From assembly GCA_014804245.1 (NCBI GenBank), contig JAAVAE010000054.1:1-62950 (forward strand): a DNA stretch of 62,950 nt. The letters run 5' to 3'. The position numbers and the translations under genes are program-made. The stretch comes from Lachnospiraceae bacterium. GTDB lineage: Bacteria; Bacillota; Clostridia; Lachnospirales; Lachnospiraceae. Numbering within the stretch: position 1 is the stretch's first letter; every line of letters begins with the position of its first letter. The notes below the pieces were generated by a model. It did no database searches, was not told the origin of the DNA, and saw only the letters and a program-made list of their open reading frames with translations. Below, one piece after another: positions 8,829 to 62,604 of the stretch.

Positions 8829-9194
8829 ATGAAACTTAAAAAGTTGGATTACGCTTTGACTGCTTGCAAAGTTGCATCAGAAATTGATATTGATTTTAGT
8901 AAAGATTTCTATTTCATTGGAAAAACGGATGAGGAATATTCTTTAGTGTGCATTACCGAGGACACGCCAGCCAATACGCTTGAACGGGATGATGGGTGGA
9001 AGGGTTTACGGATACAGGGGATGTTGGATTTTTCAATGATTGGTGTTCTCTCAAAACTGTCCGGTGTGCTTGCAGAGAATAAAATCGGTATATTTGCCGT
9101 ATCGACTTTCAACACAGATTATATCCTTGTGAAAGAGGAAAACTTTGACAGGGCTTTAAAAATATTATCTTTGGCTGGATATGATATAGTTTGA
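8829..9194 (+). CDS. ACT domain-containing protein (COG3603 type)
   Basis: 121 residues; ATG 8829 follows AGGAGG by 5 bases. The N-terminal half (FYFIGKTDEEYSLVCIT) and the C-terminal half (GVLSKLSGVLAENKIGIFAVSTFNTDYILV) form two ACT-like units typical of small amino-acid-sensing CASTOR-like proteins. Stands before a decayed LysR regulator and a LysE-type exporter fragment, so the ancestral cluster may have sensed and exported an amino acid. Confidence 0.8.
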   Translation: MKLKKLDYALTACKVASEIDIDFSKDFYFIGKTDEEYSLVCITEDTPANTLERDDGWKGLRIQGMLDFSMIGVLSKLSGVLAENKIGIFAVSTFNTDYILVKEENFDRALKILSLAGYDIV

Positions 9195-9271
9195 TGAAGC
9201 TGGCTCTCTTGCAGGCTGCTTGAAAAGAATCGGGATATAAAGAAATTTGAAATGTTTGGGATGGAGGATAT

Positions 9272-9983
9272 ATGACATTACAACAATTAAAATATATGAT
9301 AATCGTTGCGGAAAGAGGATCTATTACAGAAGCGGCAAAAGAACTGTATATTTCCCAGCCGAGTCTTTCTGGTGCTGTCAAAGAAGTGGAGAAGGAATCT
9401 GGAATAACAATTTTTAATCGATGTCGGGCAGGTGTAGCGCTGACAAAGGAGGGGATGGAGTTTTTAGGATATGCAAGGCAGGTTGTCCAGCAGATGGAAC
9501 TCTTGGAATCAAAATATGTTGACAAAAAGCCTGCAAAACAGAGATTTTGTGTTTCCACCCAACATTATACCTTTACAACAAATGCGTTTGTGGAACTGAT
9601 ACAGCGGTTTGGTCAGCAAAGATCATCCGCTTGCAAAATGCACATCTGTCAGGCTGGATGATCTGAAGCCATATCCACGGCTTAGTTTTGTGCAGGGAAC
9701 TTATGAATCGTCCAATTTTTCTGAGGAACTTTTCAGCAACGAGCCTGCTGAAAGAAGTATCAAAGTCAGTGACCGTGCGGCTATCGTAAATTTGATGATC
9801 GGACTAAATGGGTATACGATTTCAAGTGGTATTTTCCCTAAATATCTGCAAGGGGATTCTATTGTCTCTATTCCTTTGAAAGAAGATGAGGTGATGCATA
9901 TTGGATACATACTGAATAAGGATAAAGAGTTATCAGAATTAGGGGAGATTTATATTGAAGCTTTGAAACAGTACCAAAAATAA
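9272..9983 (+). pseudogene. LysR-family regulator with internal deletion
   Basis: The first 112 codons encode a LysR winged helix (MTLQQLKYMIIVAERGS, SQPSLSGAVKEVEKE) and the start of the effector domain up to VELIQRFG at about 9608. The next recognisable segment, VSKDHPLAK, normally about 70 residues further on, follows at once in another frame and continues to TAA at 9983 (LNGYTISSGIFPKYL). A deletion of roughly 200 bases with loss of frame therefore removed the core of the effector domain. DNA binding could survive; ligand sensing could not. Confidence 0.8.
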
Positions 9984-50192: not shown

Positions 50193-50546
50193 ATGGCAGA
50201 TAACAGCAGATTAGATTCCTTGATGATGCTCATGGCATTAAAGACAATGGAGAGTGATTTAAAAGGCAAATCCATAACGCCTTTTACGGTAAGCATAGAA
50301 GTTTCAGCTACATCCGTTTCATGCCACACAAGGGGAAACAGAAAGCTCATAGAGGATGTTGACGGACTGGAGTGGTTTAAGGAAACACAGGAGCGTATCG
50401 AACCAATCATGTCTGAGCAGACAACCAAGTTTGCAGAACTCTTGCAAAAGAAATTCGGGCTTTCTTTTGCGAAAGAACCCAAAACAGACGGACCTTCGTT
50501 TGAAGATCTTTTAAAACAGTTGTTTTCGGGGGGGACTGAAGGTTAG
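50193..50546 (+). CDS. Hypothetical phage protein, 117 aa
   Basis: GGAGG before ATG. No recognisable domain; a Met-rich amphipathic start (LDSLMMLMALKTME), a strand-rich middle and a helical end (FEDLLKQLFSGGTEG). The last codons contain a run of seven G (50528-50534), so slippage would alter only the tail. Lies between the ATPase and recT. Confidence 0.6.
   Translation: MADNSRLDSLMMLMALKTMESDLKGKSITPFTVSIEVSATSVSCHTRGNRKLIEDVDGLEWFKETQERIEPIMSEQTTKFAELLQKKFGLSFAKEPKTDGPSFEDLLKQLFSGGTEG
50528..50534 (+). repeat. Poly-G tract 5 (G7) near recT
   Basis: Seven G followed by ACTGAAGG at the end of the 117-residue protein gene. Confidence 0.9.
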
Positions 50547-56632: not shown

Positions 56633-57181
56633 ATGAATGAGGTTTGGAAATCGATAAGTGGTTATGAAGGCAGATATGAGGTTAGCAATCTTGGCAGAGT
56701 AAGGTCGATTCCTAGATATGTTGATAATCACACAGGGAAAAAATTGATAAAAGAGAAAATTGTAAGTCAACACATAAATGACAGAGGATATGTGATTGTT
56801 TCGCTCAATAAGGAAACAAAAAGAAAAACTTATAAAGTTCATAGACTCGTTGCAGAAGCGTTTATTGAAAATCATTTTAATAAGCCACAAGTAAACCATA
56901 TTGATGGAGATAAAACAAATAACCGAGTAGAGAATCTTGAATGGAATGATAATTCCGAAAATCAGCGGCATGCATACAGAACAGGGTTAAATAAACCATC
57001 TGGAAAGTCTGGAAAACCTAAAAGAGGGGTTATGCAGCTTGATGTACATGGAAATGAGATAGGTAGGTTTGATTCTATAGCAAGGGCATCGGTTGAAACG
57101 ACAACCTCTGCTTCTAATATTGGCGAATGTTGTAGGGGCAAAAGAAAGAGCGCAAATGGCTATAAATGGAGATATGGATAG
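56633..57181 (+). CDS. HNH homing-type endonuclease with NUMOD4
   Basis: 182 residues. NUMOD4 start (WKSISGYEGRYEVSNLGRVRS), HNH core (VHRLVAEAFI, VNHIDGDKTNNRVENLEW) and a NUMOD1-like helix-turn-helix end (IARASVETTTSASNI). A free-standing homing endonuclease. A/T-rich codon use differs from its neighbours, consistent with recent insertion directly before the methylase gene. Confidence 0.9.
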   Translation: MNEVWKSISGYEGRYEVSNLGRVRSIPRYVDNHTGKKLIKEKIVSQHINDRGYVIVSLNKETKRKTYKVHRLVAEAFIENHFNKPQVNHIDGDKTNNRVENLEWNDNSENQRHAYRTGLNKPSGKSGKPKRGVMQLDVHGNEIGRFDSIARASVETTTSASNIGECCRGKRKSANGYKWRYG

Positions 57182-57195
57182 AAAGGAATAGATAA

Positions 57196-58314
57196 ATGGA
57201 ACAAATTACAATGTTTGACATAATGTACCCAACATTCAAAATAGATAAGCCAATTAGATTGATTGAGCTTTTTAGTGGTGTTAGTTCACAGGCTATGGCC
57301 TTGCGGGATTTAGGTGCAGAATTTGAGCATTATCTCACTTGTGAATGGGAAGTGAATGCAGTTGCTTCATGTAAGGCGATACATTTTGGAAATGACAACA
57401 CTGATTATTCTGCTGAGTATTCAGAAAATGAGTTGATAGATATTCTGTTTGGAATGGGAATATCAGCAAATGGTAAAAATGCGCTTACGAGGGAACAGAT
57501 AAGCAAACACCAGAACCGCAGCGTATGGTTAAGGGAAACTTACAATAACATCAAGGCAACCCATAACCTTGTGAACATTATGGCAGTAAAGGGGAATGAC
57601 TTAGGTATTGTTGATACTGATAAATACATATATCTTCTCACATACTCATTTCCATGCCAGGACTTGTCACTTGCCGGAAAGAGAAAGGGTATGGCAAAAG
57701 GCGGCGGAACACGATCAGGACTACTATGGGAAGTTGAACGGCTGCTGAATGAGGTTGAACATCTTCCACAGATACTTCTCATGGAGAACGTGCCGCAGGT
57801 AGTAAGCGAAGAGAATATTGATGACTTTCAGGATTGGATGAGGTTTCTTGAAAGCAAAGGATATAAGAATTACGGGGAAATCCTCAATGCCAAAGATTAC
57901 GGTGTGGCACAGAACCGGGAGCGGTATTTCATGGTATCAGTTCTGGGAGATTATAATTATAAGTTTCCGCAACCTATTGAGCTGACAAGCACTATGAAAG
58001 ACTACTTAGAACCGGAAGTTGCAGAAAACTACTACATTAACTCGCAAAAGGCATTGGATTTAATAGCCAATCTGGTTAATAGCGGACAACTCACTGATAA
58101 GAGAACGTCAAATACGGTTCGGGGGCAGAGGCTCAATAGACCGGCATCAGTGGGATGCAGTAGTGGAGAAAAAGTAATACCAGCACGTATGAATTACAAC
58201 CGTATTGATAGTATCAATGATGACACAGCAAAAGCAATTATGGCGAGAGATTATAAAGGGTTCGGAACATCAGTTGAAACACAGAATGGAGTAAGAGATG
58301 AGCAACCAGATTGA
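57196..58314 (+). CDS. C5-cytosine DNA methyltransferase, catalytic N-terminal part
   Basis: 372 residues. Motif I LIELFSGVSSQAMAL, catalytic motif IV YSFPCQDLSLAG with Cys, motif VI LLMENVPQV, motif VIII VAQNRERYFMV. The frame ends at TGA 58312-58314 in the middle of the variable (target recognition) region, overlapping the next short ORF. Motifs IX and X are not here but are found at 59,780-59,930. It could act with that ORF as a split enzyme, as known for M.AquI, or be one part of a gene interrupted by frame changes. Confidence 0.88.
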   Translation: MEQITMFDIMYPTFKIDKPIRLIELFSGVSSQAMALRDLGAEFEHYLTCEWEVNAVASCKAIHFGNDNTDYSAEYSENELIDILFGMGISANGKNALTREQISKHQNRSVWLRETYNNIKATHNLVNIMAVKGNDLGIVDTDKYIYLLTYSFPCQDLSLAGKRKGMAKGGGTRSGLLWEVERLLNEVEHLPQILLMENVPQVVSEENIDDFQDWMRFLESKGYKNYGEILNAKDYGVAQNRERYFMVSVLGDYNYKFPQPIELTSTMKDYLEPEVAENYYINSQKALDLIANLVNSGQLTDKRTSNTVRGQRLNRPASVGCSSGEKVIPARMNYNRIDSINDDTAKAIMARDYKGFGTSVETQNGVRDEQPD

Positions 58315-58483
58315 AGTGATTGGATCACTTAATCCTGAGAAAGAGTGTCAGGATAGGGTCCGTGTTCTTTCGGGGGGGGGTATTTGTCAAGCGTTACGAG
58401 CCACGGATTACAAGGATCCTCCGAAAGTATTAGTTCTTGATAGAGGTAAATCAGATGCAAAAGGAAGTAAAGCAGATAGGTAA
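58298..58483 (+). CDS. Methylase variable-region module A (G9 tract inside)
   Basis: 61 codons. ATG 58298 with GGAG 7 bases before and a 17-base overlap with the methylase ORF. Content: IGSLNPEKECQDRVRVLS, glycines from the G9 run, ICQALRATDYKDPPKVLV. This is the repeating element of phage C5-methylase target regions (IG-N..., RVY..GI.PAL.A..., PKVLV). In frame through the tract at the present length. Confidence 0.6.
   Translation: MSNQIEVIGSLNPEKECQDRVRVLSGGGICQALRATDYKDPPKVLVLDRGKSDAKGSKADR
58372..58380 (+). repeat. Poly-G tract 1 (G9)
   Basis: Nine G followed by TATTTG, inside module A. Confidence 0.95.
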
Positions 58484-58643
58484 TATATATGGTTTCGATG
58501 GTGGGAATTATGCAGGTAATGTCTATGAAAAAGAGGGGTTGTGTCCGGCAATAAGAGCAAATAGCGGTGGAAATACGCAACCAATGATAATTGTGCCTGA
58601 ACCTGCGGGGGGGGGTACTGCGAATGTTTATCAGGACAAATAA
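58455..58643 (+). CDS. Methylase variable-region module B (G8 tract near 3' end)
   Basis: 62 codons. ATG 58455 with GAGG 8 bases before. Repeats the pattern of module A: IGNIYGFDGGNYAGNVYEKEG, in part NVYEKEGLCPAIRANSGG, then PMIIVPEPA and glycines from a G8 tract. After the tract the frame runs into TAA 58641-58643. One more G would instead continue it in frame into module C. Confidence 0.6.
   Translation: MQKEVKQIGNIYGFDGGNYAGNVYEKEGLCPAIRANSGGNTQPMIIVPEPAGGGTANVYQDK
58608..58615 (+). repeat. Poly-G tract 2 (G8)
   Basis: Eight G followed by TACTGCGAA; the length decides whether modules B and C are joined. Confidence 0.95.
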
Positions 58644-58735
58644 TATGCGAGCAGCGTAGTGATGAAGGAATACGATTCTTCCAAGACGGATGCTGCGGAA
58701 CCATACGAACAACAGACGGAGGTGGGGATAAGAGA

Positions 58736-58921
58736 GTGATTGAGCAGATTATTGTTGCAAGCCGCGGAAGAAACCCAAACAATCCATCGGACAGAACTAC
58801 CGGCGCACCTACTGAGCAGAGATTAGAACCAAATCTTGACGGAGTAAGCAATACGATTACTACCGTCCAAAAGGATAATTATGTGTTGGAGATAAGAAAC
58901 GGAGTAGACGCTGATGAATGA
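58736..58921 (+). CDS. Methylase variable-region module C
   Basis: GTG 58736 with GGAGGTGGGG 8 bases before. Content: QIIVASRGRNPNNPSDR, EPNLDGVSNTITTVQKDNY. The same frame is open upstream to the G8 tract and encodes ICEQRSDEGIRFFQDG and GTIRTTDGGGDKR, which belong to the same repeat type, so module C truly begins at the tract and is cut off from module B only by tract length. Confidence 0.58.
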   Translation: MIEQIIVASRGRNPNNPSDRTTGAPTEQRLEPNLDGVSNTITTVQKDNYVLEIRNGVDADE

Positions 58922-59114
58922 ACAAATAATGCCTAAATTGGTTGGAGGAATAGGGGAAATAAACTTCGGAAAGCAGTATAGGCAGGGGAATAGAGTGTAT
59001 GATTCTAATTCAATAGCAATGTGCTTACTATCTCAACCGGTAGGAAACACTGGTGGATATTCATATTTGTATCTTGTTGAGGAAAAAGAAAGGAAAGAGA
59101 TAACAGATGGGTAA
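58914..59114 (+). CDS. Methylase variable-region module D
   Basis: 66 codons. ATG 58914 overlaps the stop of module C and has GGAG 9 bases before. Content: PKLVGGIGEINFGKQYRQGN, RVYDSNSIAMCLLSQPVG, YLYLVEE: again the IG...RVY... repeat. Confidence 0.58.
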   Translation: MNEQIMPKLVGGIGEINFGKQYRQGNRVYDSNSIAMCLLSQPVGNTGGYSYLYLVEEKERKEITDG

Positions 59115-60009
59115 GTGTGTGTGGATTTTCAGAAAGGTCAGAAATGAATACGGAAAACAGATACGAAAGGCTTATGAAAGCCATGAGGTATCTGAAAAGC
59201 GTTCAAACATGATCGAACTGGAAATCAGACCAGACGGTGTATCAAATACAATCACAACGGTTCAAAAATACAATCTGTTATTGGAGCGATTGATTATGGA
59301 AAAAGTTAAGATACGGCAAGCTACAAAGAAAGGCTATATAGAGTGCGAGGTTGGTGGCGTTGCAGACTTTTCCTATCCTACAAGTGAGTTGCGGCGCGGT
59401 AGAGTGCAGGGCGGAGGTAATATATGCCCTACGATAACGGCGCAAAGTATGGGGATTTGCCGTATTGAAAAAGTTATCGGGGGGGGGTACTGCGATATGC
59501 GAGAAAATTGCAATATGGATAATAACCCTGTTGCATGGGGAGGACTGCAAGAACATCAGCACCCAAGGTTAGACGGGATATCCCCGGCATTAACGGCGGC
59601 AATGGGGATGGGCGGAGGTCAAACACCAATATTTACAGAAAGGAGAGATGAAGATATGGCTAAAATAGGGCAAATATCAAATGAGGGAAGCCAATGCGGA
59701 TCCGTATTTTCTGACAATGACAGTATGGCAACGCTAACAGCCGGAACACATGGTTATGCCAATCCTCATATCTGTACTAAGTACAGAATTAGAAAACTCA
59801 CACCGTTGGAATGTTGGCGGCTTATGGGATTTTCTGATGAGGATTTCCGTAAGGCAGAGGAAGTAAACAGTAATACACAGCTTTATAAGCAGGCTGGCAA
59901 CAGTATAGTTGAGAATGTCCTTGTGGCAATATTCGGCCAAATGCTTCCGGGGAAAGAAACGGCATATACGGAACTCGGCAACAAAAACTATAACAAAGAA
60001 AAGGAGTAA
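59107..60009 (+). CDS. C5-methyltransferase C-terminal part with further modules (G9 tract inside)
   Basis: 300 codons. ATG 59107 overlaps the stop of module D. Starts with a segment like other methylase linkers (YGKQIRKAYESHEVSEKR, RPDGVSNTITTVQKYN, a copy of the module C end), then more repeats (RRGRVQGGGNICPTITAQS, IGGGYCDMRENC from G9, HPRLDGISPALTAAM, IGQISNEGSQCGSVFSDN). It ends with motif IX/X: RIRKLTPLECWRLMGF and NTQLYKQAGNSIVENVL, which complete a C5 methyltransferase. Confidence 0.78.
   Translation: MGKCVWIFRKVRNEYGKQIRKAYESHEVSEKRSNMIELEIRPDGVSNTITTVQKYNLLLERLIMEKVKIRQATKKGYIECEVGGVADFSYPTSELRRGRVQGGGNICPTITAQSMGICRIEKVIGGGYCDMRENCNMDNNPVAWGGLQEHQHPRLDGISPALTAAMGMGGGQTPIFTERRDEDMAKIGQISNEGSQCGSVFSDNDSMATLTAGTHGYANPHICTKYRIRKLTPLECWRLMGFSDEDFRKAEEVNSNTQLYKQAGNSIVENVLVAIFGQMLPGKETAYTELGNKNYNKEKE
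59479..59487 (+). repeat. Poly-G tract 3 (G9)
   Basis: Nine G followed by TACTGCGAT, nearly the same context as tract 2. In frame at this length. Confidence 0.95.
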
Positions 60010-61803: not shown

Positions 61804-62091
61804 ATGAAAATATCAATTTCAATGAATTTACAAATAACAGCAAAACCGAAAAACAATCATTATGAGGATCTGAATGTTGGGGAGGGTTATCCGGTTAAGA
61901 TGATTAACATGGGGCAGTCGAGTATGTCCGTACTTCTGGAAGATAAGAGAGAAAGTTACAATTCTGTTCATTTTGACTTTTATCTAGGAGAAAAGGAGAT
62001 TGACATATACAAGAGCGGCCTCATAAACGGGTACAGAACTTTGCATCTTCCGGGAATCTGGTATGTGGATGGAAAGGATGGAAGATTATGA
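61804..62091 (+). CDS. Hypothetical phage protein, 95 aa
   Basis: ATG 61804 after GGAGG. Strand-rich (KISISMNLQITAKP, SSMSVLLEDK, HFDFYLGEKEIDIY, LHLPGIWYVDG). No family recognised. Overlaps the adenine methylase start by four bases. Confidence 0.6.
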   Translation: MKISISMNLQITAKPKNNHYEDLNVGEGYPVKMINMGQSSMSVLLEDKRESYNSVHFDFYLGEKEIDIYKSGLINGYRTLHLPGIWYVDGKDGRL

Positions 62092-62604
62092 AAATGGATT
62101 TAGTAGCCAACAGCGGCAATGATGAGTTCTATACGCCTGAGTATGCGATTGAACCAATTATGAAGCATATTCCGGTAGGAAGTAAGATATGGTGTCCGTT
62201 TGATACCAGAGATAGCCTGTTTGTGCGAAAATTCTCTGGGGGGGTATAGCGTAACCGCTACCCACATATCCAACGGAGAGGACTTTTTTAGCTTGGAAGT
62301 TCCTGAGTGTGACTACATAATCAGCAATCCACCGTACAGCGTCAAAGGGAACGTCCTGCAGAGATTGTTTGAGATTGGAAAGCCTTTTGCAATGCTCGTA
62401 GGAGTTGTGGGGTTATTTGAGAGCCAGAAGCGGTTTGAGATGTTCCGGGAAAATGAGTTTGAAATTATGTACCTAAACAAGAGGGTGTCATATTTCAAAA
62501 GCTATGAAGAACAGAAACCCTCATTAAATCCACCATTTAGCAGCGTGTATGTGTGCCATGGTATTTTGCCAAAGCAGATATGGTTTGAAGAAATACATAA
62601 ATAA
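62088..62604 (+). pseudogene. DNA adenine-type methyltransferase, frame broken at G7 tract (possible phase-off)
   Basis: ATG 62088 opens LVANSGNDEFYTPEYAIEPI and IWCPFDTRDSLFVRKFS, the usual start of phage Dam-like enzymes, and stops at TAG 62247 just after G7. The next frame carries the rest: YSVTATHISNGEDFF, catalytic CDYIISNPPYSVKG, AMLVGVVGLFESQKRF, PPFSSVYVCHG to TAA 62602-62604. With six or nine G the two halves would read as one protein of about 170 residues. Either a slippage-controlled gene in the off state or a plain frameshift. Confidence 0.78.
62238..62244 (+). repeat. Poly-G tract 4 (G7)
   Basis: Seven G followed by TATAGCGTAA in the adenine methylase gene; present length is out of frame. 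Confidence 0.95.

Follow-up and report, generated by a model that had tools for sequence, protein, structure and literature searches.

Organization of the methylase locus

We analyzed a 62,950-nucleotide (nt) stretch of DNA from a Lachnospiraceae bacterium (GenBank assembly GCA_014804245.1, contig JAAVAE010000054.1; hereafter the window), which is a complete contig (C54) of a 2.93-Mb genome that is 59.7% complete, and which carries, in the prophage of its right part, a C5-cytosine DNA methyltransferase encoded in pieces (Table 1). Motifs I to VIII are found in the first open reading frame (ORF) of the locus, alpha, motifs IX and X in the last one, beta, and repeated modules in between. This layout had been proposed in an earlier note on the same DNA and is borne out by the ORF map and by the profile of family PF00145 (324 positions), whose best-matching stretches are positions 33–250 in alpha and 269–322 in beta. 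Membership of this family is also apparent from PCQ, ENV and QNRER (QxRxR) in alpha and from RKLTP and GNS in beta, the letters by which motifs of C5-methylases are defined. Motifs I–VIII and IX–X likewise occupy two separate ORFs, each with start signals, in the related locus L195 and in the Streptococcus phages Javan129 and Javan179. None of the four small ORFs A to D matched a Pfam or PHROG family. The ORF starts and their succession of frames (1, 2, 0, 2, 0, 1) are as described earlier. The claim that most modules overlap the previous stop is correct for A, B and D but not for C, which starts about 90 nt beyond the stop of B; similarly, the good Shine-Dalgarno sequence attributed to every module is a clear GGAG for A and D, but a widely spaced GGAGG for C and weaker purine runs for B and E, as judged by eye, the scoring presented below covering no start other than the one next to the alpha stop.

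In C5-methylases, target recognition resides in the variable region that separates motif VIII from motif IX. In the window this region holds ten tandem modules of about 40 amino acids (aa), in the order K, DYKD, GN, EQR, GRNP, GGIG, RKVR, RQATK, WGGL and GQIS, as expected of a multispecific methylase, in addition to a module-like stretch named RGSIDRHQWD; the latter and EQR are two module-like stretches absent from the earlier note. The module names were coined in this analysis. Dulem virus 39 encodes a single 527-aa ORF in which GRNP is followed by GGIG before motif IX, in the same order as in the window, which argues that the window modules are pieces of this variable region, here referred to as target recognition domains (TRDs). 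Continuous relatives also hold series of modules between motifs VIII and IX.

Table 1. Features of the split methylase locus in the window.
Feature	Position	Strand	Frame	Description
ORF alpha	57196..58314	+	1	372 aa; C5-methylase motifs I–VIII, followed in frame by TRD module K
Module-like RGSIDRHQWD	about 58112..58174 (ends approximate)	+	2	Out of frame within alpha; alpha frame open across it
TRD module K	58183..58302	+	1	KGFG type, ends NGVRDE; DNA GGAGTAAGAGATG doubles as ORF A start signal
ORF A	58298..58483	+	2	TRD module DYKD (58310–58435); overlaps alpha stop
G9 tract 1	58372..58380	+		Inside module DYKD
ORF B	58455..58643	+	0	TRD module GN (58470–58595); overlaps A stop
G9 tract 2	58607..58615	+		Between GN (frame 0) and EQR (frame 2)
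TRD module EQR	58640..58747	+	2	No ATG/GTG/TTG before 58736 in frame as sequenced
ORF C (GTG start)	58736..58921	+	2	TRD module GRNP (58751–58891)
ORF D	58914..59114	+	0	TRD module GGIG (58932–59078); 8-nt overlap with C stop
ORF E (beta)	59107..60009	+	1	RKVR, RQATK, WGGL, GQIS, then motifs IX–X (59782–59946)
TRD module RKVR	59122..59286	+		In beta
TRD module RQATK	59305..59469	+		In beta
G9 tract 3	59479..59487	+		Inside beta, upstream of motifs IX–X; 18-nt CGGGGGGGGGTACTGCGA common to tracts 2 and 3
TRD module WGGL	59521..59634	+		In beta
TRD module GQIS	59662..59778	+		In beta

The decisive feature of the locus, also absent from the earlier note, is its three G9 tracts. The sequence GGGGGGGGG occurs three times in the 2,933,590 bases of the genome, always in the methylase array, and not once on the other strand, and a scan for G7 in the 2.93-Mb genome revealed the three G9 tracts as its sole G/C runs of at least 8. 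A chance origin of these tracts is excluded.

The compared modules, including those in small ORFs, are under purifying selection. Between the window and locus L045, the proportions of non-synonymous and synonymous differences (pN/pS) in DYKD are 0.07/0.84 for one half and 0.02/0.83 for the other, and the ratios of the corresponding rates (dN/dS) are about 0.05 for EQR, 0.11 for GRNP, 0.10 for GQIS and 0.18 for K, to which the comparison with L044 adds a pN/pS of 0.12/0.81 for GGIG; these values come from one locus pair plus one module of another pair, with synonymous sites near saturation. Conservation of EQR, which as sequenced lacks a standard start ahead of its end, fits a module that would be read only in some tract phases.

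Site-specific inversion or shuffling is not supported for positions 57196–60009. The sole inverted repeat of at least 14 nt there is a palindrome within the core of the methylase, and a weak one (76%); of three families of direct repeats, two are the G tracts with their borders and the third is a 14-nt pair.

Frame-breaking repeats are concentrated in split loci

Relatives on viral contigs were collected by alignment queries, one group being enlarged by a protein query and by a DNA pattern, and some other relatives came from genome searches; two large alignment scans retained the best 80 of 513 and the best 80 of 504 related stretches. Single-protein ORF1 queries of viral and genome contigs yielded no confirmed relative, and alignment queries were required. 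Whole continuous TRDs were too coarse as mapping queries, and single-module seeds were used instead. The 189 loci with an amino-terminal part (N-part) comprise 127 that are distinct by the last 450 nt of this part; no carboxy-terminal part (C-part) was found for 10 of these, leaving 117 distinct loci with both halves, window included, of which 60 are split and 57 continuous. According to the earlier note, close relatives with one continuous ORF, together with frame breaks unique to this locus and scattered, would have spoken against its proposal. Continuous relatives do exist in these numbers, but so do split ones, and the breaks between modules S and K and at the end of K, described below, lie at conserved places. 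On a tree of the 117 N-parts, for which the bootstrap had not settled, we counted 17 changes between the split and continuous states, at least 10 of them forced by well-supported branches, against 39.5 for shuffled labels, which indicates that the state changed often but is clustered. The sister of the window in this tree is L047, with 77% identity.

Non-triplet, hence frame-breaking, repeats are present in the TRD region of 49 of the 60 split loci versus 4 of the 57 continuous ones (Fisher p = 2.6e-17), and three of these four have only short repeats, (CAAA)3, (AT)5 and (GT)5, the fourth being L154. G/C runs of at least 8 number 66 in the 54.0 kb of split TRD regions versus none in 28.7 kb of continuous ones; the flanks have 18 such runs in 472 kb and 4 in 505 kb. 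Scanning all unit sizes of 1–8 nt, we found in the split TRD regions, besides the 66 G/C runs, 6 dinucleotide, 10 tetranucleotide, 13 pentanucleotide, 2 heptanucleotide and 1 hexanucleotide repeats; trinucleotide repeats were absent. Repeats that break the frame thus outnumber those that keep it by 97 to 1 (one hexanucleotide), compared with 112 to 30 (units of 3 or 6; n = 142) in the flanks (p = 7e-7). A single array may contain up to five tracts, as in L045 with one GA and four G8 tracts. The Mycoplasma phage methylase MW353172 has one short (AAAT)3 only.

Two side observations concern the N-part. In 16 related loci, for example L186 (position 5281) and L160 (position 3650), motif IV (YLLTYS) is encoded by (TTAC)4–5; the N-part ORF of L186 breaks at its (TTAC)4, and its kin L085 has one further, slightly altered unit. 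In L143 (2–1876) the N-part lies in one long ORF in which more than 300 aa of extra sequence separate the first and second parts.

Tract length varies between near-identical relatives

Relatives that are otherwise identical differ in the length of non-triplet tracts in coding sequence, as expected of slippage loci. In a group of six contigs, the repeat that follows motif VIII is (GA)18 in one and (GA)16 in five; over 3667 bp the (GA)18 contig differs from three of the five by one 4-nt gap and no mismatch, whereas the other two show 2 and 3 mismatches. Alpha continues into K when the tract has 18 units and stops just past it when there are 16. A second set of relatives has G8 (L195, L198) or G7 (L196, L199, L200), with no mismatch or other further difference over 3453–3555 bp; beta is intact with G8 (L195) and ends before motif IX with G7 (L196). 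Finally, a G7/G11 difference upstream of the methylase is the sole one over 3976 bp between L049 (position 1588) and L050; it falls at the end of a gene whose match to D12-class adenine methylases is below threshold.

The repeats (GACA)14, (GACA)25 and (GACA)29 of L045, L046 and L047 were not counted as a polymorphism, since in L045 and L046 the sequence of the locus runs out inside the tract or directly behind it. The (GACA)29 of L047 is carried just downstream of the methylase (about 9024–9900) by a gene with an SGGKDS motif, presumably sulfate-reductase-like, and is read in an open frame as TDRQ repeats.

The frame of module K is open across module S

Split loci often have a module S followed by K behind an upstream tract. 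Wherever adjacent S and K modules are in different frames, K is offset by +1 relative to S (15/15) and the frame of K is free of stops across S (15/15; 0.6 expected from synonymous recoding of S), whereas the +2 frame is open in none of the 15 (0.14 expected) and the frame of S itself meets 2–6 stops up to the end of K; these 15 loci are related, and a combined probability would be overstated. In the continuous loci, S is open in +1 in one of five, L154, where a single ORF runs through S out of frame and reaches motif X beyond two non-triplet repeats, (ACAG)8 and one with 8 units of 8 nt. L154 would appear from its sequence to be a natural fused phase. With the K frame at +1 and open through S, the choice between S, K and neither could be made by a tract that lies upstream. 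In 20 of the 24 split loci in which S comes first, it is preceded by a repeat whose unit measures 1, 2, 4, 5 or 7 nt; only these unit sizes were scanned before S, and the absence of triplet repeats rests on the 1–8 nt scan. Relative to the N-part, K is in frame in 8 of the 15 S/K loci, neither module in 6 and S in 1, and in some of them (L085, L099, L186) alpha stops earlier for other reasons. No S module was found in the window; its place is taken by RGSIDRHQWD, which is out of frame and accompanied by no more than a G5 run; alpha crosses this stretch to reach K, a layout that resembles the S/K arrangement of relatives.

The end of K also appears to be used twice. K modules end in NGV, often written GGAGTN, and GGAG is followed by ATG or GTG in 18 of the 29 K modules with this motif, always in another frame, the own frame of K ending 7–13 codons after this signal; just one of the 29 lies in a continuous locus, so that the count has no control. 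In the window the end of K is GGAGTAAGAGATG, which is the start of ORF A. A strong Shine-Dalgarno sequence with a start is found beside the alpha stop in 15 of the 60 split loci, compared with 2 of the 114 control stops, which were taken out of frame in continuous loci (p = 2e-6). In L118, L147, L181, L185 and L202 the ORF begun at the K end is 125–300 aa long, and that of L147 holds motifs IX–X.

Interpretation and alternative explanations

The earlier note offered either a multi-subunit methylase with exchangeable target-recognition pieces or a gene made phase-variable by numerous switch points. Our results favor both together, given the recurrence of split alpha and beta, the clustering of slippage tracts within the TRD array, and the differing tract lengths of relatives that are nearly identical. 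We propose, with a probability of roughly three in four, that the locus encodes a split, multispecific and phase-variable phage C5-methylase whose TRDs would be chosen by reading frame. The enzyme would consist of alpha, with motifs I–VIII and one TRD, and of beta, with further TRDs and motifs IX–X, and by analogy with known split enzymes the two are expected to assemble. The TRD array would act as a contingency locus, with non-triplet tracts at module borders and inside modules, where slipped-strand replication would alter tract length and hence the reading frame of the modules that follow. In several relatives, the tract after motif VIII would select TRD S, TRD K (through S in the +1 frame) or neither, and the end of K often contains the Shine-Dalgarno sequence and the start, in a different frame, of the ORF that follows. 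In the window, where alpha ends with K, tracts 1 and 2 are placed such that they could decide the reading or joining of DYKD, GN, EQR and GRNP, and tract 3 such that it could decide whether beta reaches motifs IX–X; the tracts of this phage presumably vary like those of its relatives. Methylation specificity would then change with tract alleles, and the likely outcome would be a phage population mixed in specificity or in on/off state, a mixture that may protect phage DNA from varied host restriction enzymes. One part of this proposal we favor only by a narrow margin, namely that TRDs are encoded in overlapping frames like alternative exons, the DNA of S serving as a stop-free linker to K (+1), with a repeat of changing unit size as the selector; several tracts in an array could then let a single phage genome produce many methylation specificities as it replicates.

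The strongest alternative, which we consider unlikely, is plain on/off phase variation, in which the tracts only switch the methylase and the modules have no role in alternate specificity. It would account for the G7/G8 pair that truncates beta before motifs IX–X, for the break of L186 at the (TTAC)4 that encodes motif IV, and for the position of tract 3 upstream of motifs IX–X in the window. On the contrary, a K frame open across S in all 15 loci, when the +2 frame never is, is not needed by on/off switching alone, and the conservation of modules in several frames and the many tracts in one array argue for more than a switch.

We regard it as very improbable that the locus is a degenerating methylase or that its frameshifts are assembly errors. 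The incomplete genome of the window, the second broken methylase-like gene at 62088–62604 and the 24 of 60 split copies in which simple patterns miss a motif would agree with decay or error, but the same breaks recur in identical contigs of different metagenomes (L046/L047, L120/L122/L123), alpha and beta are also split in the annotated phage records of Javan129 and Javan179, each compared module is under purifying selection, and the breaks come with conserved offsets and start signals; the breaks are probably not an artefact. Just as improbable is a stable multi-subunit methylase in which A–D are free TRD peptides assembling with alpha and beta and the tracts are incidental, for although A–D have their own starts and mostly overlap the previous ORF, the ORF at the K end is long enough for beta in five relatives and the streptococcal pair does without tracts, the tracts are too enriched and too variable in length to be incidental and EQR is conserved without a start of its own as sequenced.

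Several points weigh against the slippage-driven choice of TRDs that we propose, in addition to the relatedness of the S/K loci, the uncontrolled K-end count and the narrow basis of the substitution ratios. Eleven of the 60 split loci have no non-triplet tract in the TRD region, and the annotated records of Javan129 and Javan179 (L226 and L227) show a C5-methylase as two genes about 100 nt apart without slippage tracts, the alpha of Javan179 ending in an S-like module as judged by eye; splitting and slippage can therefore be separate. No near-identical copy of the phage of the window was found. Other insertions and deletions were also observed: a T7/T8 difference and a single T downstream of the gene, A8/A7 on its upstream side, a pair of single-base gaps that compensate each other upstream in L135/L160 and, in the less similar pair L203/L206 (94.8%), G8/G5 upstream; L105/L106 (99.0%) differ by four gaps and by substitutions just behind the N-part. 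Adjacent S and K modules have offset 0 in L074 and L185, and in L053 the K match is weak (2e-05), the module being of another type. When a Shine-Dalgarno sequence is not required, starts near the alpha stop are as frequent in split loci (46/60) as among controls (89/114). There is no support for A–D as free working TRD pieces. Since module borders in the window were drawn by eye and its own modules were among the seeds, the window matches these modules by construction. The window alpha has a degenerate motif I (FSGVS), and simple patterns for all six motifs are passed by 36 of the 60 split loci, suggesting that some copies may be dead, some of the misses being phases or pattern limits.

Prophage context

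PHROGs matches were obtained for eight of the ten proteins submitted from the right part of the window and include an integrase, a repressor, an anti-repressor, RecT, an exonuclease and a DnaC-like loader. A free-standing homing-type endonuclease (NUMOD4/HNH) is encoded immediately upstream of the methylase, at 56633–57181. The second methylase-like gene (62088–62604; phrog_799, with sub-threshold EcoRI_methylase and Dam matches) shifts frame at a G7 tract (62238–62244), possibly another switch of the same prophage. A further G7 tract (50528–50534) lies at the extreme end of ORF 50193–50546, which has no Pfam match.

Relation to known systems

M.AquI is a natural C5-methylase split in two pieces, and the modules of the multispecific methylases of Bacillus phages measure about 40 aa. 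We know of no slippage tracts in the latter, nor of a TRD array, tracts or overlap-coded alternative TRDs in M.AquI or in split M.SssI. M.AquI is named, and the artificial splitting of M.SssI reported, in PMC3404938; the present enzyme resembles both in being divided into two pieces after motif VIII. The Bacillus enzymes, encoded by temperate phages, are C5-methylases with TRD arrays that give protection from many restriction systems (PMC12707154), and share with the present one their phage origin and several TRDs in an array, but consist of one polypeptide. Multispecific methylases appear in PMC4081073 as reference-list entries only.

The earlier note knew of no description of either arrangement, a statement not supported as it stands, since specificity switching is published for NgoAV (PMC9577141) and for Type IIG enzymes of Helicobacter pylori (PMC3936762), and TRD arrays for the Bacillus phages (PMC12707154). 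In the Type I system NgoAV of Neisseria gonorrhoeae, the specificity gene contains a poly-G tract; when one G is lost, two genes become fused and a different sequence is methylated (PMC9577141). The likeness lies in a poly-G tract within the specificity-determining region; unlike this bacterial Type I system, with HsdS and one tract, the locus described here involves a phage C5 enzyme with numerous TRDs, dual-frame cassettes and as many as five tracts in one array. The H. pylori Type IIG enzymes JHP1272 / HP1353-HP1354 have two homopolymer tracts, one acting as an on/off switch and the other adding a C-terminal recognition domain that changes recognition (PMC3936762). They are similar in tying homopolymer tracts to on/off state and recognition, but are bacterial, consist of a single polypeptide and belong to another enzyme family. 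Host systems of H. pylori are treated in PMC12003011, and PMC10477858 contains none of the terms phase variation, frameshift or homopolymer. Each of the three elements, a switch of specificity driven by tracts, a split methylase and an array of TRDs, is known on its own. No description of their combination in a phage with dual-frame TRD cassettes was found among the best-ranked papers of full-text searches in an open-licence library, which lacks preprints and most subscription journals, and the dual-frame cassette is the boldest part of our reading.

If this reading is true, phages would have in this locus an equivalent of the bacterial phasevarion, by which a virus gambles on its own DNA-methylation pattern against hosts with varied restriction. 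It would allow fast changes of specificity without recombination, would constitute a natural source of modular split C5-methylases, and would lend itself to predictions testable from tract length alone. It would also be a warning that phage methylases may function as switches even when they are annotated as fragments.

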